The notes under the pieces were generated by a model that was not told the origin of the DNA, did no database searches, and saw only the letters and a program-made list of their open reading frames with translations. A program made the position numbers and the translations under genes. Of a DNA stretch of 64,000 nt, positions 14,105 to 53,527 are shown in pieces. The DNA is from Saksenaea vasiformis B4078 (lineage: Eukaryota > Mucoromycota > Mucoromycetes > Mucorales > Saksenaeaceae), in contig JNDT01001794.1 in the NCBI GenBank assembly GCA_000697055.1, forward strand, positions 83,864 to 147,863, read 5' to 3'. Position 1 is the stretch's first letter. The number at the start of each line of letters is the position of its first letter.

Positions 14105-14710
14105 TCAACTTACAGGAATCTCGACCTCACCAGCATCAATGGCATCGCAAAGGTCCTTGGGGCTCTGACCATCGACAGTGCAACCAACAGAGTTGGCAGT
14201 ACCGAGGATCTCCTTCACGGTACCCTTGAGCTCACGAGCGTAAGACTTGAAACGCATGGTGCGGGCAATCTCAATAATGTCATCAAGCGAAACGTTACCA
14301 CTGTGCTTGACTAACAAAATAATGACATTTTAACATTCCATGCTTCCGCAATCATTTGGTCGACTTACTGTTCTTGTCCTTCTTGCGGTCTCTTGGGGGC
14401 TCCTTCAAAGCCTTGATAACCAAGGAAGAAGCGGAGGGGACAACAGAAACCTGAGCTTGACGGTTCTGGATAGTCAACTGGACGGTGACACGAAGACCCT
14501 TCCAATCTTTGGTACCCTTGGCAATGTCTTCACCGACCTTCTTGGGTGAAAGACCCAAGGGACCGATCTTGGGAGCGAGAGCGCTGGATGCACCAACTTC
14601 ACCTCCTATACTTTTGTGTTCAGTCCAATGGGTTTGGCTTCAATGGTCAAATTACCGGTAGCGCGAAGGTAGATGATCTTCACCTCATTGGGATCGAATT
14701 TGGGAGGCAT
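14105..14710 (-). CDS. RPL12: 60S ribosomal protein L12 (uL11)
   Basis: Component of the large-subunit stalk base that contacts elongation factors. Three exons: 14710-14656, 14605-14369 and 14310-14105. The introns of 50 bases (14606-14655) and 58 bases (14311-14368) both have GT...TAG ends. The spliced product is 165 residues, the usual eukaryotic length. It begins [20 protein letters not shown], contains the family blocks [34 protein letters not shown] and [11 protein letters not shown], and ends EVEIPVS before TGA. A possible donor overlaps the stop codon, but the family's usual end is reached without further splicing. The gene is complete, highly conserved and certainly functional-looking. 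Confidence 0.97.
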
Positions 14711-15349
14711 CTGTCAATATAATCGTTAATCAATTAGGTTCATCTTGCTGCAGTCGCGTCATTGGATGGATGCGTGTGGATACCTTGGGACTGAAAGGAG
14801 GGAACACGCATCACTTGCTGGTGAGTCTCAAATGATGGTTTGCCCGGTGGCGGGCATTCAATTTGTTCAACACGGTTTCGACTTGCCTCTTGCTGCGATT
14901 GGCTGATCTCCGCGAAGGGTGGAAAGTAAGTGACATTGGATGCGTCTTTTATGCTGTTCTATTATTACATTACATTCGAGTAAATGAATTTTGAGCTGGA
15001 AAGTGATGCATCTTTGCGGTGGAAAGTAGGTCGTTTTACATTAATCCAAGGAATAGTTCGCGCCTGGATAACCAGAGGCCTGTATTGGGGCGTTTAAGCG
15101 ATAATGGTGCGGGGTGCGGCTCCCACAAATGTGTAGGATTACCTTCGGGGTAAGTAAAATGACATCCAAATATTATTCCAGTTATTTTCGTTCTTGCGTG
15201 CACATATCTTTTGTACTTAGTTGTGCGAAACTACACTACTCCTGAAAAAGTATCCGGATTAAAATAGACCCGGGGTTAGCAAATAGAGTAGACATGTCAA
15301 TAGCGTTTACCTAAGCAGTGTAAACATCCACGCGTTTTTGATACGCGGA
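14711..15349. other. Upstream region of RPL12
   Basis: Contains the presumed RPL12 promoter and the 3' flank of the Fanzor relic. No coding sequence was recognised. Confidence 0.4.
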
Positions 15350-18300
15350 TCAATGTGGTGGCGACTGTGGTTCGGTTCGGCTGAAAATCAACGGTCGCGC
15401 GCCAGAAAGGATACATGATATAGAAATAGCATGCATATTTCGCGATGCATTGTGAACCCTTTGCCAAATAGTTCCGCAACTTCTACAGCTCAGAATGCTA
15501 TGCAAATGTTGATTAGCACCGATCGCAAGGTTGTCCAATTCTTGGGCGCCACACTTTGAACATACTTGAGACGTACAATATTCATCGACGTGTATGACCA
15601 CCAAACGTCCCTCGCCTTCTGCTCGTTTCATCAGCCTTTTGCAACGGTTTGCCAACCCGGCAGGTTTTGCCCCATATGAGTTACGTCCAAAGTTGGCGTT
15701 ACCAAAACAAATCAGGGGAACTTTGGAGCTGTCATTGTCAATAGGCGCCTTTTTCCATTTGCTATTGAATGCAACAAAAGTTAAATACCGATATACTGGA
15801 ACAAACGAATAGTTACTCACTTTTGCCTAACCGATCGCTCCATTTGGGGGCACGTTGGAGTTGGTCAGCGGTTTCCGACGTCTTTTGCGTCTTGTTCCGT
15901 CTGGTCTCACACTTTGCTGGTAGCTCTCGGGAGATAAACCTGAACGGCTTCCTTGAGCGCCACTATAACTTCCGTACTTAACACCACTATCAGTTAGCAT
16001 ATTGACAGCTCCGCGTCCATTCGCTGACGTCCGCGATAATTGTTAAATTTCATTTGTTGGAAATCTTTGTCGTAAAACTGGATCAGCGTAGGAAAAACTT
16101 CAAGAGCCCTGCCAACATAGTCCCGGATTCCTTCTAGTGTCGACACCTTTGCTGTAGGCATACCTGACTCTACCGGACCAATATCGGCGTCATCTTTCTT
16201 TTGCTTTGTTTTTGCAACTGTTTTGTCGAATCCGGCGCGCACGTAATATTCGGCGGAAGATATGCGGCGTATTTCATGAGCGCCGTTCTGTTCATCATCG
16301 GATTCGTCAGATGAAAGCTCAGGAAGCTCCCGTGCTCCAACTGAGTCAACACTGGTATAAGCGTCCAAGTTGCTCCCGTCGCTGCCAACAAAAATCTCTG
16401 TCACGCCGGGATCGACGCCCCATACCCTAAAGTATTCCAACTCCCATGGTTGGAAATCCTCAAAATCAAGGGCTGGCAGTACTTCATGACCGGAGATCTT
16501 CTTGTTGAACAAGACCGATACCGCATACCCATCCGTGTCGATGCTATTGTTGAAAAACAATCCTGTATTTCTATATTTGTCCATCCAAATTTTAAAAAAG
16601 TTAACTTTTATAATTGATAAGTGCTTCGTTCTTACCTATGCGGACCGTGACGGACTGTGGATAAATCAAAGACATTAGTGAAAATGGGCAGAGGCATTAA
16701 TGGATCGGTTGAGGTGCCCCTTCTCGGAATATAATCGCTGAGATCGGCTGCTCGAAGTAGCTGTCCTAAGATCTGCTGGTCAATATGTATGTGCTTTTTA
16801 GTGAACTGGGGCTTTGGGACCAGAGAGAGAAGACGTTCGGTCTTGGCTACGTGGTGCAATTCTGGACGGAATGTAAATGGCAACAGCTCTCTATTTCCGA
16901 TATGATCCTCGAGATAGACACCAGAAACCTCGATTTGAACCTGTGCCTCGTTCACGGCATCACGAAGCAGTCGCACGGACTCCTGAGAAATGTTTGTGAT
17001 TGCCTGCGCGTCAAATGGACGTTGCTGATCCACAAGCCGACATAACAAATGGGAAAGTGATTGTTTGCGACGACGACCCATAGTGCTGTGTTTAGGTAAC
17101 GTCTTGAGGACGTCCCTCGCCCAGCCAATGGGGGCTTCAACTTGCGCATCATCTGCTGAAATTACCTGCTGCTGGTTGTATTCCTCGAATTGTTGCTGTA
17201 TCCGAAAGGCGAAGTGGACGAAGAACTGGGGATATCGGGATAAAAGCATTGTTGTTAAATGTTTTCTTGAGGACTCTTGCCCATCAGCAACGGTAAGCCT
17301 CCTAATTTCACGCAATAGTCCAGTATCACCAAATACATCCGCCGTCATGGACATATGAGCAGCATAGTCTGCGTGTCGTCGAACACGATTAGCATTAGCA
17401 ATGGCTTGATGATAGGTATTCATGGAGATCATCAACGCTTCGGTTGATGCATTGACGGAGATATTTGCTGATAGTACAGTCGGTGTTGCATCTTGATCGA
17501 CTTCTGTCAAAGCCGAATCCACGAGCGATCGTAACTGGGTCATTATTTGGAGGCAACCATGGAGGATTCCATGCGTTAAGGAGAAATCAAAGCCGTCTGT
17601 GTTCTGTAAGCTCAAGGCACCAATGATGGTATTCAACGCATGTAAAACAGAGTCAATAAGAGCCATAATGGTAGGAATATGGTGGAATTGGAAAGAAGCT
17701 CCAGGATAGCTGAGAGCGATGAAACCGAGGTGTGTGCTTCAATAACAGCAAATATGGTTTCGAAATCAGTCGTTGTCCCATCCACTAGTCCTTCAACAGC
17801 GTCATTGATATTATCCGCCATGCTTTCATCGATGTGAGTACTATCCGGCCATACCGGAGGGAAGAGTACATCATCAGCACAAGTCTGATAGATAAATCTG
17901 GCCAGCTTGTATGCATCATTTTTTCGAAGGTCCTAGGCATCGATTAATATGAATATAAGATGCGCTACAAGGTGCTCACTTACAGGAACTAGTTGCCGTA
18001 ACAGCAATTGTAACGACGATGCAGTCCATGCGGCAAAATTCTCGACAATATTGTTAGTCATGCAAGCGCTATATGTTTCCGCTGTTGAAGAAAGCATATG
18101 GCTGTACCGTTGTTCGCCATGAATGGGTCGGACCCAGCAGGTTGGGAACTCGACAAGGAACTCTCGAAAGCTCAATGTCAGTGATCCTCTCAGTTCGTCC
18201 GTGATAACCACAGTGTTTGTTATTTGCTGTCCCGTGATGAGCTGGAAAACCGAGTAGAAGAAATCTTTGCTGAAGACCAGTGCGGGTAACGGTTGCTGAT

Positions 18301-19314
18301 TGTTCAGTTACCGATACACAAAGAAATTGACAAACAAATGGCTCTTGATTACGACCTCCCGGTTGTAATCAACTACATCGTCAATCACGCTTATCAGTGT
18401 TTTTCTCAGAAGATGGTAGACTTATAAACTTGTCTAAACCGGTTTTCCTGACAGTCTTTCGGACTTTGCCTACTTCCTGGCGAAGTTGCGCGATATTCCT
18501 TAGCTTCTGGTACGGGCAAAGAAGAGAGGAGCTCCTGCTATGTGTTTTGGCGGTATCAAAGCTGTTATTTCTCAAGCACGTGGGACACTGCGGACGAGGT
18601 TTCTGTACATCATCTTTCCATCGAAGGGAACGGGCAGTGCTCTTTTGCAACGTTTCGTCGGAATTTTGCTTCCGCTTTTGCGCTCGTCTTCCAGCCGGCC
18701 GTTGACGTCGCTGCCTATCCGATGGGCCAGGTTGATCATCGCTTTGATTGCCAAGCTGTTGTTGGCGTTCTTCTAACAGCTCCATATTAGCGATTCGTGT
18801 GAATATACTGCTCCTCTGTACTCACCCTCTTTTGCCGCTAACTGCTTTTTTGGCCGTTTTTTAATAGGATTATATCTCGGTGAGATATTCCTTCGTAACT
18901 GATCAATCGTGGTAAATCCATAAGTTTTTGATAATGAGAGCTCTGACAGGAAGGAGAGGGAAAGAGTGGGAAGGTACAAGGAAAAGCCCTTGATAAGAAA
19001 GTTGCCTTTTCTTCCAGTCAGAAACCAGTCATCCAGAAAAGAAAATAGTCTTTCCAATCTATCAGAAACCGATCACGCAGAAAGACATTCTTTGTTTCAT
19101 CAGATACTGTGAAATCCAAGTAAACTTCAAAAGAATGAAAAACATGTATAACAAAAATAAGTCCTTGAAAGGGATCGTAGTAGTTTCGTGAAGTGTCACG
19201 ATAATAAGAAATAGGAGATTTTCTGCGAGAAGGACCAATGGCCGAAGTGTAAAAACACTTACTAAGTTGCGTCGTTTCCCGTCTTTTGCTGTACTGTGCA
19301 ACACGTTTGGTCAT
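15350..19314 (-). pseudogene. Fanzor (eukaryotic TnpB-like) nuclease gene, copy 1, decayed
   Basis: Fanzor proteins are RuvC-fold, RNA-guided nucleases carried by eukaryotic transposons. The minus-strand segments line up in family order. First come a possible first exon at 19314 and a Cys/His-rich motif (CPTC...SSSLLCP) near 18600. A helical N-terminal region covers 18211-16632, with intron 17933-17983. The RuvC-I strand reads VWGVDPGVTEIF near 16420. Last are ICFGNANFGRNSYG and a CxxC...CxxC zinc ribbon (VCSKCGAQELDN...CRSCGTIWQR) near 15720-15440. Decay is visible as an in-frame TAA at 18308-18310, frame changes near 17660, 16000 and about 15850, and the motif RVHNASRNM where the family has R-D-x-N-A-A. 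It is therefore probably non-functional. Family assignment rests on the RuvC and zinc-ribbon motifs. Confidence 0.8.
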
Positions 19315-19333
19315 TGTACTTTACGTGAAGTAT

Positions 19334-19749
19334 TATTTTGAAGGAAATTGCTACGGACACTCAGCGTCTGCGTCTTAGGGACACTCATGTAACACAATTT
19401 AGAGAACTGTTAGATAGATAGCTTAGAATTCTCTAATGAAGTCTGATCGTATGCGAATACTAACAAGTGTTTGATTCTCCATGGATCGGCTGTTTAGGCT
19501 TAAATAGATGAACGGGATGATATCTGCATGTAGGCGCTCGATGAGGGCTTAACAGGCAGACATTCAGCTCATAGGCACTCATCCTATGGACGTTGGCTTC
19601 AGGGATACCCACGCCTTGGCTTTTATTTGAGCACAGGCATACTTGCATCAAAATTCGGGAAGACCTTTGCACAGCCGCAGGCGAAAACGCGTTACATGAG
19701 TGTCCCTAAGGGGTAGATTCTGAGTGTCCGTAGTAATTCCCTATTTTGG
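19334..19749. mobile_element. 400 bp MITE-like element with 8 bp target duplication
   Basis: The element proper is 19342-19741, exactly 400 bases. Its ends are imperfect inverted repeats of about 50 bases: the left contains CTACGGACACTCAG and TTAGGGACACTCATGTAAC, and the right carries both in reverse complement. Flanks TATTTTGA (19334-19341) and TATTTTGG (19742-19749) look like an 8-base target duplication with one mismatch, as expected for hAT- or Mutator-like transposition. It has no coding capacity. It sits 20 bases beyond the likely 5' end of Fanzor copy 1. Confidence 0.75.
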
Positions 19750-20569
19750 ACCTGTTTGTGAGCAGCAAAAATCTGGCTCGTAGGTTTAAGTTCCTGAGAT
19801 TATTTGTAGTTGTGAGTCTATGTTGTTAGCTAACTACCAAAATAAAAGAATAAGCGTATTCTCTAATGACTTTTGCATTTTCAAAGGTTCTCATTTGCTC
19901 TTCTACGTGTTTTGTCATGCTTGTTGAAAATTAAGTTTTTGGGACTGAATTTTTCAATCCAGATACTTTTTCGGGGAGACTAATTTGTACAAAATACAGG
20001 TCCGAGATCACACTCTACCTGACAAACCTGGATCACGACAGATTTTATGCCACGTTCGAAATTGGGCACCTTGACTTTCCGTATCCTTTGGCACGGTTTC
20101 CTACATTTATGATCCTCAAAAACCTGCATACTTTACTCCTTGTATGCCAAGCTTTCTGGAAATATTGCACAAGTGTCTCATCTACTTGGTATCATCCAAC
20201 AACGCCGTCGGTCCTCATTGCAACGCGGTGATTTGATAAACATCACGGATCCAGCAAGCGGTCGAGACGGAAATTGTTTCATTCGCTTGCGTACATTTTA
20301 GCCTCAATAAACGAAATTTGTAGATGCAGTACTGTACTCTATACACATACAATCCCGACATTCTCGACCATGCTAACTGTCCTGTCGCGCTCGATCTCGG
20401 GACAAGGAAGTATTCCAACTTAAGTGTCCCGACCGAGTTCAAGAGAAAGGTGTGTCCTGTCTCGTCTTGTCCTGTCTTGCGCATCCGGTAGCTATTGAAA
20501 GGGCCATCTCAGATCACGCTGTAGCAGTTGGTCACGCGATACCAGTAACCGTAAATTTGAGGGATTGCT
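19750..20569. other. Spacer between the MITE and the CxxC fragment
   Basis: Nothing coding was recognised in this roughly 800-base stretch. Confidence 0.4.
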
Positions 20570-20937: not shown

Positions 20938-23900
20938 TTAAATTATCCAGTGGCCATGTGCCCGCCGATTTCTTTGATCCACTGCTTTTTTGTACCATTC
21001 AATAGCTTTGTCGATGTCTTTCTTTTCATCGAGGTAAATATTTCCAAGCGTGTATTGCGCATCTTCATTTCCTTGATCCGCCGCTTTTTGGTACCATTCA
21101 ATTGCTTTGTCGATGTCTTTCTTTTCATCGAGGTAAATATATCCAAGATTGATCTGCGCACCTTCATTTCCTTGATCCGCCGCTTTTTGGTGCCATTCAA
21201 TTGCTTTGTCGATGTCTTCCTTTTCATCAAAGTAAATATCTCCAAGTGTGCATTGCGCATCTTCATTTCCTTGATCCGCCGCTTTTTGGTACCATTCAAT
21301 TGCTTTGTCGATGTCTTTCTTTTCATCGAGGTAAATATATCCAAGATTGATCTGCGCACCTTCATTTCCTTGATCCGCCGCTTTTTGGTGCCATTCAATT
21401 GCTTTGTCGATGTCTTCCTTTTCATCAAAGTAAATATCTCCAAGTGTGCATTGCGCATCTTCATTTCCTTGATCCGCCGCTTTTTGGTACCATTCAATTG
21501 CTTTGTCGATGTCTTTCTTTTCATCGAGGTAAATATATCCAAGATTGATCTGCGCACCTTCATTTCCTTGATCCGCCGCTTTTTGGTGCCATTCAATTGC
21601 TTTGTCGATGTCTTCCTTTTCATCAAAGTAAATATCTCCAAGTGTGCATTGCGCATCTTCATTTCCTTGATCCGCCGCTTTTTGGTACCATTCAATTGCT
21701 TTGTCGATGTCTTTCTTTTCATCGAGGTAAATATCTCCAAGTGTCTTTTGCGCATCTTCATTTCCTTGATCCGCTGCTTTTTGGTGCCATTCAAATGCTT
21801 TGTTGATGTCTTCCTTCACTCCATGTCCCCAACGGTACATCTCTCCAAGTGTGTATTGCGCATTTTCATTTCCTTGATCAGCTGCATTTTTGCACCATTC
21901 ATACGCCTTGGAGAACAATTCCTCTGCTTTCTCATCGTCCTCCTCCACACCCCACCCAGACCAATACATCGCTCCTAGATTGTTTTGTCCAATTCCATGT
22001 CCCTGATCTGCTGCTTTTTGGTACCATGCAGCTGCTTTCTCATTGTCTTCGCGCACACCTCGTCCGTGATAGTACATATCGCCCAGTTTGATTTGTGCAT
22101 CGGCATTCCCCTGCTCCGCTGCCTTTTTGTACCGTTCAGCTGCTTTCTTGCTGTCTCGACGTACACCTCGTCCATGTTTATACATATCCCCAAGTTTCGT
22201 TTGTGCGTCGCTATTTCCCTGGTCAGCCGCCTTCTCGTACCACTCGTGTGCTTTAATGTAGTGTTTATCCGCACCAACATCCGAGCAGTATATATCTCCA
22301 AGCGCGAGTTGCGCCCATTCATTACCGTGATCCGCTGCTTTCTTGTACCATTCAATTGCTTTGGTATCGTCTTTCTTTACGGCAAGTCCGTAGAAATACA
22401 TATTTCCAAGGTGAAGTTGCACATCCTCATTTCCTTGGTCAGCTAACTTCTCATACAACGTAATATCGTTGGTGTAATCTTTGCCCTCGTCGCTGTAAAT
22501 AACTTCAGGTCCTTCCTTAGTCTCGTTGCTCAGTTTGGGGTCTTTGTGATCTCTTCCTCTCCTATCGCCGTGACCATGTATATCTTCATTTCCTAGACCT
22601 ACAAGTCTTCCATCTAAGTTCACAGGGTCTTCATTTGTTGCGCCCTCGTGATTAAATACATCTTCTTCAGGCTCGTTTTGCACATATTCACTTTCTTGAT
22701 TGGCAGCTTCTGTGCTCAGACTGACGTCTTCCTGATATTCATGCAAGCTGCCTTCAGGGCTCGGTATGTGACTAGAATTGTTTGAAGTCTCTCCACTTTC
22801 TCGAGTAACAACTTCCAGTTCTATATTAATATTGTCGTTATCATCAGAATCGTCGCTGAATATATCTTTTTCAGGTTCGTTTTGCAAGTTTTCATGTCCA
22901 TTGTCTATGGCTCTGTTGCTGCCTTGGTCCAGAACTTGCATCCAACTCATGTCTTCAACCTTGTCTACCGTACCTTCATTGCTTTTGGCGAGCGTTTTGA
23001 AGACTTCTATTGCATTTTCTTCCACCACGTGTCCAAGCTTATTATCCGAAAATGCTCTGTCGTAGACCTCCTCCACTTGAAGCCGTTCATTCTCCCCAAG
23101 AATGCTATATATCGGCTTCACATCTTTGAACTGAATAATGGCTGGCCTGGATCTCGTAGTTTCTTTCCAGTTTCCTAGTCCGTCTACGAAAAATGTTCCG
23201 GGATTGCCACCTATCACAAGTTTACTTAGCAACAATCAAAGTTATGTGATGGAAAATACCTATAACTTCCCAGTATTTATGATTTCTGATAGCGTTTGTA
23301 ACGTTCTCTGCTACATTTTCACTGGACTGTATTTCTTGACGCTCGTTCTCTAGTCCACAACCGTTTCCATCCTGTATCCTTGAACTCGCATTCTTACAAG
23401 CAAGTAGACCACCTGAACCATGAGACAGTTAGATAATGTTACACATGTATTAATCACAGTACCAAGTAATATTTTGTACGGATAGTAGTATCCGAATCGT
23501 CCAAACACTGTTTGCAGGGCTTCATATTTCTTCGTATTGGTACCTTTCTCCAAAGCATGTTGCACAGCTTTCCTAAAACGGTCCGCTGCTTTGACATGTT
23601 CCAAAGACAAGTGTACCTGTAGAAAATATGGAATTGAATCGTCCATAAATTCCTAGCTGATTCCTTACTTCTCCCCAAGAAACATAAGAGACGATGTATT
23701 CGACCGAGTCTTTTCCAAAAGACCGTTGGCGTTGTTGACGTGCGCTGCAACTAGATTCCGCAGCAATATCATAAGCAAACGTTTTAGACGGCAAGCGGTG
23801 AAAGCTGTCATCCATCAATAATCTGTTCATGAAACCATCCGTTTCTATGGCTTTCGTACACGTATATTCCACAAATGGCTTTTCGCAGGGATGAGTGTGA

Positions 23901-46705: not shown

Positions 46706-49311
46706 TGAACTCGTTCGCCAAACGATTCATTCATCCGGCGGCATCATCCCATCGCCGTGACAGATGCATCGGGAACCCATGGGTTGATCGTTGGCGAGAT
46801 TCAACCCACCTCCAGAATGGCCCCCCACAGAGCCAGAACCGTGCACCAACTGAACCAATATGGACGTCACCCAGCCCAACAGGCAAATGCCATCAGGACC
46901 GTGCCGGGGTTTGCCAACTCTTACCTCAAGAGCCAGCGGTTGTGCACGAACTTTAGAAATGAATCTCTGGCGTCATGCAAACCAGTTCGAACCAGGAGCG
47001 CACAACCAGAAGAGCATACACCCAACTAATCATACGTCAAGCTCTAAAGCGCATGTCGGCTAACACACCGGAGTGAAAGCTATTCAGATGATTCAGCGCC
47101 TAGAACCAGTCTGACCCTGTAGACCGGACCCACAGGAACATACGTTAACCGACTTTCAAGGCAAAGCCAGCTAAAACGGAGGTATTTTAAAGAATCATCT
47201 CTGGGAACCTACCATCCCCACAAGACAGAAGTCTTGAGACGTGCGCAGGCTAGCCCAATGAAGGGATAACCAGCCAAGCAAGATGCTTAACCCAAAGAAC
47301 AATCAATCCGGAGACCAACTGCCCTAAGAACGCACGCTGCCACGTAGTTTAAGGATAGCTCCTTGGGAACATGACCTGCCCGCGCGTGTTGGCAAACTCC
47401 ATAAAGGTGAGAACCAGTCAGCTGAAGCTCCAATCCAGAAATAAACCCGGGAAGCCGTTACCCAACCCAAAGGAGCACGATGATCCAATGGACACGCGAA
47501 ATCCCAAAAAAAAGATCACCTTAAGACCATGTAGAGTCATCCCGGGACGGGAATCATCAAATCCTAAGACAATGCGCCAGATAACAGAAGTTACCTACTA
47601 ATAAGTTTCCTCCTCCTTCAGAAACCCATCAGCCAAAAGGACCGAAATCCTTAGGGACGACTTTGAGGTTTGGCACGGCAACTAGCGTACTAGTTACTGG
47701 ACGGCGACCAATCGAAGGACCAGCGATGCATATGGTGTCAAGCCTCGGTCTTGGTTTGCATAGTCTAACTTCCCTGAGTATCTAAAAAAAAAAAAAGGAA
47801 TGGATACGTATGGCGGGTTGTTATGTACCCACTATACCGTAGTCCGTAGCGCAAGGTCTATTTAAAATAATTAGTTTAAAGAAAAAAATTAAGCGTAATA
47901 AACATACCTTTGAAGAAGATGACCGATCATGGAATACTCAGTAGACTATGCAGGAATATGGCACCAATCTCTGTGGGGAATCATCCCGGAAGCGAAAGGA
48001 AGGTCGATCTGCGCCGTAACTCCAACGTACATGAGGTCCGTTTATGGTCCCTGCCCCGGAGTGGGAAGCTAATAGCTGGGTTACACTTTGTGAAACAAGC
48101 ACTACTAAAAGCGTACCTGATTGATCGGCATTTGTGTTCTTGCATAACACCGACGCAGAGGTGTATGGCGTAATGTCAGTGACGATCTGTAGTTGACATG
48201 TGAATGAATGGGAAGGATCAAGTGAATGGTACTGCCCTCGACCAAAGGTGGAAGTTTCAGAGCCCGACGTCTAAATGGAGACTGTACTCTTGAAAGAGCA
48301 TGTCGAGATCCGAAATGGGAGTTAATTAGAAAAGAATAAATGATCGAACGATTCCTAAAGCATACCTTGTTGAAATAAATAGAAACGCGTCGAAAACGCG
48401 AGATACGGGTGGTTCCGGAAACTAAAGTAACGTAAAAAAAACGATTTTGTTTGGAATATAGCTTACCGGAAAGTTTTGTTGCAAGAAGGGAATAATGGAA
48501 GGGTGAAAGATAAAGTTAAAAAAGAGTAAGGAAAAAAAGAAATGAAATATCAAAAAAAAACTCGTTTGTCGGCATCATCAGCAAAGAGTGGCCAGCTCTT
48601 TGCAACGTCTTGTATGTCTGGCCAGGACAACAAGAACGTATAATGATGATGTTGGCCTCCGACATTGAGTACAACAAGAAGTATAAAAAGGAAAGAAGAA
48701 AAGAAAAACTTACCAAAAGAAAGATATAACGAAAGAGAAAAGAAAACGAAAAGGAAAAAAAAAACGGCCTTTTTAAATGCCTCTTGAGAAATCAACCTCA
48801 GCGCGGTATGTCACTCCCCAAGATAATGCACCTTTACCAAAGAAACAGAAAAAGGTGAAAGTATTGAAGTGATTTCTTATGTCGAACGTTTGTTGCAAAC
48901 AGCATTAGCTCATTCGAATGTCATTTGGTTTGGTCATTCAGTTGAATGCAACGGAATCGCGATTATAAGAACAGTCGAATGTAACCGGTAATTACATTGC
49001 GCTTTCCCGGTATTCATTCCCAGTATGTTTTAGCTATGGTAAGTAACTTAATCTTTCTCCTGTATTATGCTAGTGCCGGTATTAATAATAACTGCACAGA
49101 GATTAATCTATTACTGCGATCGGATTTTCATTAAAGCAAGAAAAAAAAAGTACCTTTCAGCATCAACTGCCGTTTCGCATTACAAAAGGGATTTGCTTAG
49201 TTGAAGTGATCTACTGTTTTCCCAAAATGAGTGTCGCAAAGGAAAGAAAAAAGTTGTCGTTAGAGAACTACAAAAATGGAAACCGATATTTTGTGATACT
49301 TACGACATCGT
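46706..49311. other. 2.6 kb without a supported gene
   Basis: Contains a poly(A) run at 47785-47797 that might be a retroposon tail, and purine-rich stretches at 48440-48770. Short frames between 46757 and 47601 have no recognisable domain. Confidence 0.35.
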
Positions 49312-51800
49312 CTAAACGTCGCGAGCTTCTGTTGCTCGGATTGGTTGGAAGCTGTGATTGAACGCCGGTGGACGACTAGTTGGCTGATGGGCACCTTCAA
49401 TTGCCAGCATGGCCAAAGCGTGGATATTTCTTGCGGCATTCAGATCTCGTTGCCAGAAGCGTGAGCAGCTGTTGCATACTACCACGGAATGCAAGTTCGA
49501 TTCTTCTATTTGCAAGTTGTCCAACGACCTCGTTCCACAGATATTGCAGACCTTGCTTGAATATACTTCATTTGCCGACACCATGATCAAACGCTCTTCT
49601 GTCTCTGCTCGTTTCAGCAACTTCCGAAGTCTGTTTGCCGGACCGTGGGGTTTCCCCCTGAACGTATGCCCTGAACGTACGCCGATCGTACCTTCCGTCA
49701 CCAACACAGACTACATTTACCACAGCATTGTGGGTGCGAAGGAACCCTGCCTTACGCCATTTGTTACTAAGCGAACATGGCATGAATCAGTTTTGTCTTT
49801 CAAACACGCAATTTACGGTTTGGGAACGGTTTGGGTTTGGGCAACGGGTGACGTCCGTTGCTTGCGCTTGCGACGCATCGTTACATCAGCTCTAGTTCTT
49901 GCCGCAAGTACTTCCCGGCTCACAATGCTCGGACTTGCGTTATACTTCTGCCACCTCGGAGAAATATGTTCACAATTTCGTCATCCACCTTTTGGCGTCC
50001 ACGGTAGTTGAGAAAACGGAACTTTTGGACCTCGATGCCATAGAATTCGGTCAACACAGGCAGACGCACCAGAAGGCCAGCAATGTGTTCATCCAATCTT
50101 GCAAGATTCGTCGTTTTGGCTGTGGGTATTTCGCTTTCAATACGGTCAATGCCTTGTGCTTTCTTCCACTGCGTGATCTTGGCGTTTGTCTTTTTTAATC
50201 CTGCCTTAACATGATACTCTGCTGCCGAAAATTTTCGTACTTGATGTCGATGGTTGCCCATGTTCTGGGCAGGCATAAACGGCCCTATCACTGTCATCAA
50301 CGGCAACAAATACTTCATTGACCCCCGGATCCACTCCCCAGATTTTGCAGTGTTGGAGATCATCCAAATTGACGTCGTCCAATGCAAGGGATGGTAACTA
50401 GTCTTCTGGTACGGGCTTGAGAAACATCAAGGAGGTGGCATAGCCGTCCGTGAGAAAGGCGTTTTGGAAGATGCCGTGTCTAAACCAAACAAATCAGTGC
50501 CTCACGTGTTTTTATGCTTCATCTTACCGCTTCATTTTGCCCATATCAAACATGTTGAAATTGGCATGCGGGCGATCAACAGGTACAGGAGTCCCAGATC
50601 TTGCAGCATGGTGGCCAAGGCCAAAGTGACGAAGTATGGTTCCCATGGTATCATGGTCAATACTGATATACTTTAGAGTAAGACCAGACACAGGGGCAAG
50701 GGTGAACAATCGTGTCTGTTGTCTAGTCAGGTACCCAGGTGGGGTGAAGACGCCATTATCCAGTTGCTGCTTAGCTTCGGTGATGAACGATTGCATCTGA
50801 TCGATAGAATTTTGGCTGAAACCGACTGGAAGACGTCCAGGTTCAAAAGCACGACGTTCATTGATGATCTTGGTTATGGCACGCACGAGGTTGGTGCGGC
50901 GGCGATAGTTCAGAGAGACCCATTCAGGTAAACTTGACAGCTTATGGCGTGTCCATGCGAATCCGGCCTTTTTTTGCACTGTAGCTAGGGGGCTCTTCTT
51001 CCTGATTGTTCCAGAGTTCCATATGACCAAGTATTTCATACAGGATTGGTAAAAACAGATGAGGATATCCCGTCAATGTAGCAGCTGTAATTGATTCATC
51101 CAGAACAAGCTGAGAGAGACCTAGGCTACCAACAGTAGTCATACTGAGAGCGGGCGACGGGGCGTCCGCCGGGCCAGGCGTGAGCGCTGGGGAATAGTCC
51201 ATAGCTTGTGTTAACGGGATTGAAGAGAAACTTGCGACAGCTGAAGTTCTGGCTTGTTGTCTCCGGGTTGGACGTCGATGAGCAAGTCGTATTTGATCAA
51301 AGATGTGATCCCAGCGGTCGCTTGCTTCGTCGATCAGAGCCAGTAGCGTGTCATTGAGGTCGTTGTCATCTATGCCAGCATTGTCATCATAATAGACTGT
51401 GGGCCATTCGGGAGGGCATTTAGGGTCTCTTGTGGTAATATCGTAAACGTACTGTGCGTACGCAACTGCTTGATCGGCCTTGAGGCGCTGTACGGATAAA
51501 AACAGCAATGAGTTTTCAGCTTTACCTATCCAGCTAACTATACATACCGGGAATTGTCGCAGGAGTGATGCTTGCAAGTAAGAGGTGTAATAACCATCAA
51601 AATTCTCAACAATGTGGTTGGTGAAATTGCTGGCGCATTGAGAGGCAGTGGACGAAAGCATGTGACTGAAGGATACTGGTCCTTTTCCCGCAACTGGAGA
51701 TGCAACCTTGTTGCATCGGGCACTGGGATGCTCCTATATAAATTGAGAAAAGATATGAAGGAGATCCTTCCGAAGTTCTTGAGATAATATTGCCTTCAAT
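49312..51800 (-). pseudogene. Fanzor (eukaryotic TnpB-like) nuclease gene, copy 2, frameshifted
   Basis: Minus-strand segments again follow Fanzor order. The N-terminal helical part (HMLSSTASQCASNF, SLLRQFP, then after an intron RLKADQAVAYAQYVYD) is followed by the basic motif GFAWTRHKLSSLPEW. Next come the RuvC-I strand IWGVDPGVNEVF near 50340, VVCVGDGRYDR near 49690 and a zinc ribbon VCNICGTRSLDN...CNSCSRFWQ. The RuvC-III motif RDLNAARNI keeps its Asp. Frame changes occur at an A-run near 50975, near 50250, and at a 13 bp tandem duplication at 49657-49682. An in-frame TAG lies near 51735 unless an intron ends there. The N-terminus seems missing. It differs strongly from copy 1 in sequence, so it is not a recent duplicate. 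Confidence 0.8.
49657..49682. repeat. 13 bp tandem duplication causing a frame change in Fanzor copy 2
   Basis: CCTGAACGTATGC at 49657-49669 is followed directly by CCTGAACGTACGC at 49670-49682. The length is not a multiple of three. The reading frames on the two sides of the duplication are the two halves of the same Fanzor domain. Confidence 0.85.
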
Positions 51801-53527
51801 TCATACGAGATTATTCTAAGACATGTTCACACACAGAACACAAAGTGGGGCATGTCGTTCATGATCCAGTGACGGGAATTTCGAGAGCAATGATATCCAC
51901 TTTTTGCAGTCCTAATCAACTGCATCTTTAGGATCGTACTATCTCGTCGTTCCTGCATAATGCTAAACTTTATTGGCTCCATGAGACAGATTTGCATAAA
52001 TCAAACCAGTTGATGAGAATAAGTATATTACAAACACCAGTCACCACCATTTTCCCACGTAATTGAGGAAAATGATGCCGAATCAAAAATTTATCTACGT
52101 TCGGTAATATATCAGCGTTGGATGGCAATGATCGCCTACCGTACTGAAAGGAGAGAGTCTCACGGACGCTTAATTGTGGTCAACGTTGGAGAGGCATTCA
52201 TAAACCCACTTCCACATGTCCTCTCTGATGATTGAAAATCAAATAATCCGAGCAACAGAAGCTCGCGGTTTAGACAAAGTCGTAAGTATCGAAAAAAAAA
52301 AGAAGGACGTGAATCAGGATATTGAAACAGGGTAAAAAAAGTTTCATACTAAACTGACCCGAATCGATTTCCGTAGTTCAGAGCTAATTTAACACGTAAA
52401 TTCAAGGTAAACGTATTTGTGGATTCCAACTGCCCCTTTGCACCCTATAAGTCACAATCGCATAATCTACCTTGGCTTATTTTCGCAGGTATTCTATCAT
52501 GCGTGAATCGGACGGAATCTCAACGAAAGCACCCCGACTCTGGCTTAGTTAAGATAACCCATCGTATGGAGTCTTTAGACCCAACCTGAGCAGGACCAGT
52601 TCATTAAATCCCGACCATTAAGAGCCCTGCAGTAGATATGCATGTGACGAGAACAATGATGGACATCCTAGCAGGCTATGTTGTTCTGCTTAACCTTGCC
52701 CGGAAAACGGATTCTATTCAGCCAAATCTTTTCCATTGATTTGTCATACACCTTGAACAGATTTGGAAATTAATGGACATCCTTATTCAATCATTTTATG
52801 GCTCAATACATTTTACCATACAGCTGACAATTAGCACCTCTTGGAACCCATCATCGATATTATCTTGGGTAAAGATGGTAACTAATCCAAAGGAAGTCCA
52901 AAATCTAAAAGCTTCGCTAGTTTTGGCTACATCGGATAAAATTTCCTTTATTAGCGGTCATTCTGGCTAGAGCCGTTACCTGATTACTTCTTTTATAGTG
53001 CCAATGTTTATTTGTGAAGAAGCTACTATTAGCTAGCTTTGAGAACTGCCAAATGGGTGCGTCGTCAAAATAAAAGAAACCAATAATTCTCCATTGCTGC
53101 AACCGGCAAAAAGTTCAATCTCACCTTGTTTGAGTCCTACTTTTTTAGAAAATGACGAAGCTAACTTGGCTTAATCAGATATGCACCTGATGGAACAACC
53201 ATATCTTAGCAAAGGCACCACGTGCGCCAGAGCGTCCTTTGCCAAGATGCGTATTGAAGAAATAGTATGTGCTATTCTTTGCAAAATTGTGAACAGAAAT
53301 GAAAAAGCAGAAAATAACCGCGTAGTATTGATACAGTGTTCACCAATGCAAGCAGCTGTTCTTTCTTTCAGACGTGCAAGTTTGTTGCGTTAAAAATCTT
53401 CACCAACCGGGAATCAAAGATTCAGGTGACGGTCCCAATAGCTGGCCTTTATTGGATGAATTTCGCCAATGTAATTCTGTGTCTCTTTCCCTCTCTTGCT
53501 TCTTTGATTCAACCCACCTCTCTCGTC
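51801..53527. other. 1.7 kb without a supported gene
   Basis: Only short open frames were found. The last 100 bases are presumably the promoter and leader of the R3H gene, with a pyrimidine-rich stretch (CTCTTTCCCTCTCTTGCTTC) just before the start. Confidence 0.4.

Follow-up and report, generated by a model that had tools for sequence, protein, structure and literature searches.

SpuFz1, a Fanzor1 nuclease of Spizellomyces punctatus, is described as a single ORF within Spu-1, an element with terminal inverted repeats (TIRs) and a TA target site duplication (TSD) (PMC10432273, PMC3627910). According to Saito et al. (2023), a CA dinucleotide is conserved just upstream of the left inverted repeat and the target-adjacent motif (TAM) proved to be CATA, a 75-nt block is conserved between the stop codon and the right inverted repeat, and S. 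punctatus has 42 Fz loci and 134 ghosts, which lack the Fanzor gene (PMC10432273). Bao and Jurka (2013) reported Fanzor1 on Mariner-type elements with TA TSDs, some of them without transposase, gave about 150 copies for CMe-1A and recorded Fanzor1 in Rhizopus, Phycomyces and Mucor, on elements described as MuDR-type or unclassified; MCi-2 of Mucor has the TSD pattern ATAATTNNNN(N), which contains AATT (PMC3627910). In a related fungus, Parasitella parasitica, the Fanzor1 protein PpFz1 is described as RNA-guided with a 5'-ATN TAM (PMC11423790).

The Fanzor copy studied here lies in a window of 64,000 nucleotides (the whole stretch of Saksenaea vasiformis DNA that was analysed). As described for Spu-1, its Fanzor1-type gene sits in a TIR element with a TA duplication, a conserved block (here of 86 bp) lies between the stop codon and the right repeat, nucleotides matching the (here predicted) TAM are conserved upstream of the left repeat, and Fanzor-less derivatives occur. 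It differs from the published account of Spu-1 in that (i) the gene family has introns, (ii) the predicted TAM is AATTA, not CATA, and (iii) the same genome has Tc1 relatives in which a transposase gene is present, as well as two subfamilies that differ in their terminal repeats. The Mariner-type elements of Bao and Jurka that lack a transposase are alike in kind, whereas those reported from Rhizopus, Phycomyces and Mucor differ from the Tc1 element of the window. The ATN motif of PpFz1 and the MCi-2 pattern, as published, are parallels to AATTA and not tests of it. With the TnpB proteins of IS200/IS605 and IS607 the window Fanzor has the arrangement of RuvC and TNB in common; it differs in being eukaryotic, in its introns, in its TIR element with a TA duplication and in its long N-terminal part. 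The gene itself is an unremarkable example of a kind already known, and no description of this family was found in a literature search that left out most subscription journals and the preprints outside PMC.

The Fanzor1-type gene and its decay

The earlier note, made from the letters alone, had read the locus as a dead, intron-containing Fanzor gene with a RuvC-I strand, an ICFGNANFG strand and a CxxC...CxxC ribbon, and this reading was confirmed. The following features of the gene were recognized:

15350..19314, minus strand: decayed Fanzor1-type gene with introns (open frames, Pfam match)
15994..16632, minus strand: RuvC-I exon with WGVDPG, catalytic Asp codon at 16411-16413 (open frame)
15353..15826, minus strand: open frame that contains the CxxC...CxxC ribbon, the RuvC-III segment and a Glu at 15581-15583 presumed to be that of RuvC-II
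18308..18310, minus strand: in-frame TAA stop
17702..17708, minus strand: point at which 95-97 bp are deleted, as compared with the seven other copies that span it

All three motifs are on the minus strand: VWGVDPGVTEIF lies inside the ORF 15994-16632, and the ORF 15353-15826 carries ICFGNANFG and CSKC...CRSC. The gene has a candidate start ATG at 19314, and introns of the GTAAGT...AG form can be seen in it. A profile search, of the kind that the note had proposed as a check, gave a match of Cas12f1-like_TNB (PF07282) to 15353-15826 (E 2.2e-10), which, scoring 41 bits where the cut-off is 26.3, is above chance; the RuvC exon alone had no match in the Pfam search, and NCBIfam guided_TnpB matched the last exon with an E value of 4.5e-7, under its cut-off. 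The segment TSQVCSKC...CRSC is a C4 zinc ribbon preceded by [TS][TS]xx and fits the motif of Bao and Jurka. The RuvC-I motif WGVDPG with its Asp is unchanged in all seven aligned sequences, namely the window copy, five other loci of the same genome and a Halteromyces radiatus protein. Searched against the PDB, the RuvC-exon profile made from these seven sequences had SpuFz1 as its top match (E 2.6e-5), and so had a Hesseltinella homologue (E 6.1e-4); the TNB-exon profile found TranC, TnpB and Cas12 proteins, with TranC and TnpB ahead of GtFz1 (0.029), and no chain named PpFz1 was among the matches of the profile and Hesseltinella-homologue searches. Two protein homologues were retrieved with the full-length gene model of the C544 copy, from Hesseltinella vesiculosa (45% identity) and Apophysomyces sp. 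(54%), and an earlier search with a single exon, limited by its length, also gave two matches; Hesseltinella and Halteromyces are Mucorales, and by these homologues alone the genome would probably be placed in the same order. The structure predicted for the Hesseltinella homologue from 14 aligned sequences (mean pLDDT 46.9, pTM 0.32) was too poor for a fold comparison.

The window copy is dead, as judged from its lesions. In addition to the TAA stop, which is real, and to the frame changes that separate its successive open frames, both already seen in the earlier note, the analysis added the 95-97-bp deletion and the loss of a catalytic residue: RuvC-III reads WQRVHNASRN, with Val at the third catalytic position (15455-15457) and no RD motif, while 6/6 other aligned sequences have WQRD.NA. 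This Val is read as decay of the window copy and not as evidence against membership in Fanzor1. That the gene is a domesticated or functioning nuclease of the host, and not a decayed transposon passenger, is scarcely credible: long open exons do persist, but the lesions listed above already refute such a reading for the window copy, and the gene furthermore lies between TIRs and a TA duplication and belongs to a set of many dispersed copies.

The host element and its Tc1 relatives

Alignment of copy flanks, the note's suggested way to the element ends, delimited an element larger than the gene, since homology among copies breaks off at 15234 and 19980. Its parts are:

15234..19980, minus strand: transposase-less element of Tc1/mariner type that carries the Fanzor gene; 4747 bp, of which 0.4 kb is a nested insertion
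15232..15233: TA duplicated at the target site, right copy
15234..15264, minus strand: right terminal inverted repeat, CACTACTCCTGAAAAAGTATCCGGATT reading inward
19342..19742: nested MITE-like insertion of 0.4 kb with 59-nt inverted ends (83%)
19819..19951 (approximate), minus strand: left-end stretch in common with Tc1 transposons
19952..19980, minus strand: left terminal inverted repeat
19981..19982: TA duplicated at the target site, left copy, in a register made uncertain by a left terminus about 2 bp short

The inverted-repeat arms of the window element agree over 24 nt at 88%, and the terminal-repeat pattern was found at 22 sites genome-wide (reversed control, 0). The C88 copy has the nested insertion as well, whereas C522, C201, C382 and C310 lack it.

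The left end of the window element matches two Tc1 relatives, C322 over 136 bp at 79% and C538 over 133 bp at 74%; for the C145 copy the match to the C538 Tc1 reaches 216 bp at 87.5%, and it is shorter in some other copies. In C538, a terminal-repeat pair (about C538:76830-78180) flanks a transposase gene in which HTH_Tnp_Tc3_2 and DDE_3 domains were matched. The transposase genes of the C538 and C322 Tc1s are each spread over more than one frame and look decayed; the C538 Tc1 was for that reason dropped as a candidate autonomous element. No DDE transposase of its own was seen inside the Fanzor element. With its Tc1-like ends and the shared left stretch, the element is best read as a non-autonomous Tc1 derivative that lacks a transposase. 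At least 157 DDE_3 matches are present in the genome, among which none was found both intact and using these ends, and an automatic TIR search at ten DDE_3 loci gave paired ends in one (L030). At the left end of the C428 copy (L023:1001-1658) lie 0.67 kb of Tc1 sequence that include part of the transposase gene; this copy may be a capture intermediate, but its near-identical duplicate C29 differs at that place.

Around the element, an 80-bp repeat lies just outside the right end (15103-15184; at least 18 further matches at 85-90%), a ribosomal L11 RNA-binding domain (PF00298) is encoded near the insertion at 14105-14329, and an open frame at 20938-23235 has 14 Sel1 repeat matches (PF08238).

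Genomic copies and the conserved 3' block

The Fanzor family is abundant in the 38.7-Mb genome, with at least 207 RuvC-exon matches (150 of 253 candidates scored) and at least 137 TNB matches (PF07282; 150 of 388 candidates scored), 131 of them above the cut-off; these are lower bounds, yet exon-wise matching can divide one gene into several. The copy numbers published for S. punctatus and CMe-1A are comparable. The earlier note had allowed for intact relatives in the same genome: relatives there are, and several keep open RuvC and TNB exons, but a fully intact gene was not among the copies read closely, which have stops or frame changes elsewhere. Subfamily A comprises the window copy, C522, C201, C382, C613, C310, C88 and C484; subfamily B is the C145/C29 type and subfamily D the C418/C85 type, for which left ends were looked for and not found. 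Subfamily C, with terminal repeats unlike those of A, comprises C533, C360, C544, C262 and a second copy in the window:

49212..52400 (5' limit approximate), minus strand: second Fanzor copy, subfamily C, with the RuvC-III Asp present and an eroded left terminus

Its right end is GGGAAAACAGTA. The motif GTAAGTAT follows its stop codon and its right end reads CAG-TA, so that its 3' block could also be an intron that ends at the transposon end.

The note had further suggested looking for a conserved non-coding RNA at the 3' end of the gene, and a block of this kind was found in ten copies:

15262..15351, minus strand: 3' non-coding block, conserved and with two predicted hairpins; a candidate for the omegaRNA scaffold

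In all pairs of these ten copies, the 86 columns between the stop codon and the right end are 84-99% identical, whereas the last coding exon falls to 66-70% identity between two exon types, a contrast to which recombination may add because three copies are mosaics. These mosaics (C522, C201 and C310, at L009, L010 and L013) combine a window-like upstream part with a last exon of the other type, which suggests exchange between Fanzor subfamilies. The window copy and L009 are identical at 82/86 positions of the block and at 277/402 coding positions, and for L021 the corresponding figures are 76/86 and 288/411.

The same block could have been kept as a subterminal region bound by the transposase and not as RNA. 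It adjoins the right TIR, and its fold is without statistical support: the two hairpins pair 98.8% of cells, against 28-57% when slid, with no excess over shuffled alignments, both sides have changed in 0/17 pairs, again with no excess over shuffles, and single-sequence folding was not significant (z -1.62, 0.82 and -0.86). An Rfam search of 15000-20200 gave no match. In subfamily C, the equivalent block (at least 41 matches; 40 of 52 candidates scored) occurs also within the left terminal repeat, and deleted derivatives contain it too; it was dropped there as a Fanzor-specific feature, and its conservation, inseparable in that subfamily from repeat function, may reflect transposition. In the subfamily of the window, by contrast, a genome search with the block gave 17 matches, all 17 of which adjoin Fanzor coding sequence, and the Tc1 relatives match the block model only weakly, through the terminal repeat (27-29 bits; the Fanzor copies score 116-159). 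A role in transposase binding is on balance rather unlikely; the subfamily A block is a probable candidate for the guide-RNA scaffold, and its fold is plausible.

Left flanks, the predicted motif and a proposed mechanism

Insertion flanks are asymmetric in subfamily C. All 35 ends found by pattern were read and sorted, according to the base at position four of the terminus, into 14 left-type ends (TAC[AG]G or TATAG) and 21 right-type ends, two of the latter having lost the TA; the sorting was done by eye once the rows had been seen, with the Fanzor copies C533, C360 and C262, whose left ends were known, as the guide. The trinucleotide AAT precedes the TA at 13/14 left-type and 2/21 right-type ends (Fisher p 9e-7). 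The two right-type ends with AAT are both on C265, and one is by position a probable left end. A cruder, scripted grouping rule gave AAT at 8/10 left and 7/25 right ends. When the side was instead set by neighbouring Fanzor sequence, AAT was present at 7/8 left ends (C533, C360, C262, C447, C265:2246, C626:172082, C626:270918 and C469:12982) and 0/10 right ends (C533, C360, C262, C544, C46, C66, C565:216471, C626:173604, C626:272383 and C469:11594; p 2.5e-4). In the window, AAT precedes 123 of 7321 TA sites.

In subfamily A, the three clean left ends (C201, C310 and C596) all read GAAT-TA; the termini of the window copy, C382 and C480 are shortened or altered and stand next to AAT only if small deletions are assumed, and in C522 and C88 the left terminus is gone. 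The right flanks of A and B with a TA have AAT in 0/8 cases, a count that leaves out C74 and C428, which share the C29 site, and C613 and C484, which have no TA. The two left ends of subfamily B, which read ATAG-TA and CGAG-TA (AAT 0/2), count against the pattern.

These AAT-TA left flanks, together with the SpuFz1 precedent, predict AATTA as the target-adjacent motif, and the following positions are proposed for the window:

19981..19985, minus strand: predicted target-adjacent motif AATTA, left flank
15212..15231, minus strand: predicted guide, the first 15-20 nt or so of the flank past the right TA, by analogy with SpuFz1

The AAT might instead belong to a longer left end of the element or reflect a target preference of the transposase, without any role of the Fanzor. 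No empty site was found for the window insertion or for the C533 insertion, so that AAT as pre-existing host sequence is unproven, and the same left flank occurs in Fanzor-less elements, two of them internally deleted (C626:270918 and C469) and one a 0.2-kb end pair (C617). C469 and C626 were no longer counted as independent ghosts, both being internally deleted Fanzor elements. This explanation is nonetheless unlikely: AAT is common to two subfamilies that differ in their terminal repeats, beyond AAT the 14 left-type flanks show no relation to each other (at most 12/27 identical), a TA-targeting transposase offers no obvious cause for a one-sided AAT, and in a small sample of ends from Tc1 relatives with family A repeats (both ends of C538, one of C322) and from the Tc1-like L030 (both ends) AAT is found in 0/5.

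The reading preferred here, in which a nuclease selects for AATTA, is probably correct in outline: the window holds a dead copy of a Fanzor1-type element whose living relatives would have moved and persisted as follows. A Tc1 transposase would have moved the Fanzor element in trans; an RNA made of the block between the stop codon and the right end, extended by roughly 15 nt of the host sequence downstream to serve as guide, would have loaded the Fanzor protein; the complex would have recognized AATTA and, after it, the guide sequence, together precisely the site as it stands without the element, and cut there; and repair from an element-bearing copy would have restored or spread the element. 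Insertions with AATTA on the left would have been kept and others lost, leaving asymmetric flanks.

In summary, host element, ends, Tc1 relatives, candidate guide-RNA scaffold and predicted TAM (AATTA) are defined for a multi-copy fungal Fanzor family, and each predicted part is testable in standard Fanzor assays. The flank signature in the relatives is, as read from their sequences, unusually clear, and it opens both the TAM and the homing model to direct tests. There is about an even chance that the insertion sites of one genome record Fanzor activity, with retention only at AATTA left flanks, across subfamilies with different TIRs and across Fanzor-less derivatives helped in trans, the nuclease and not the transposase determining the TAM. 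If the reading preferred here is right, it is natural evidence of Fanzors shaping where transposons persist.
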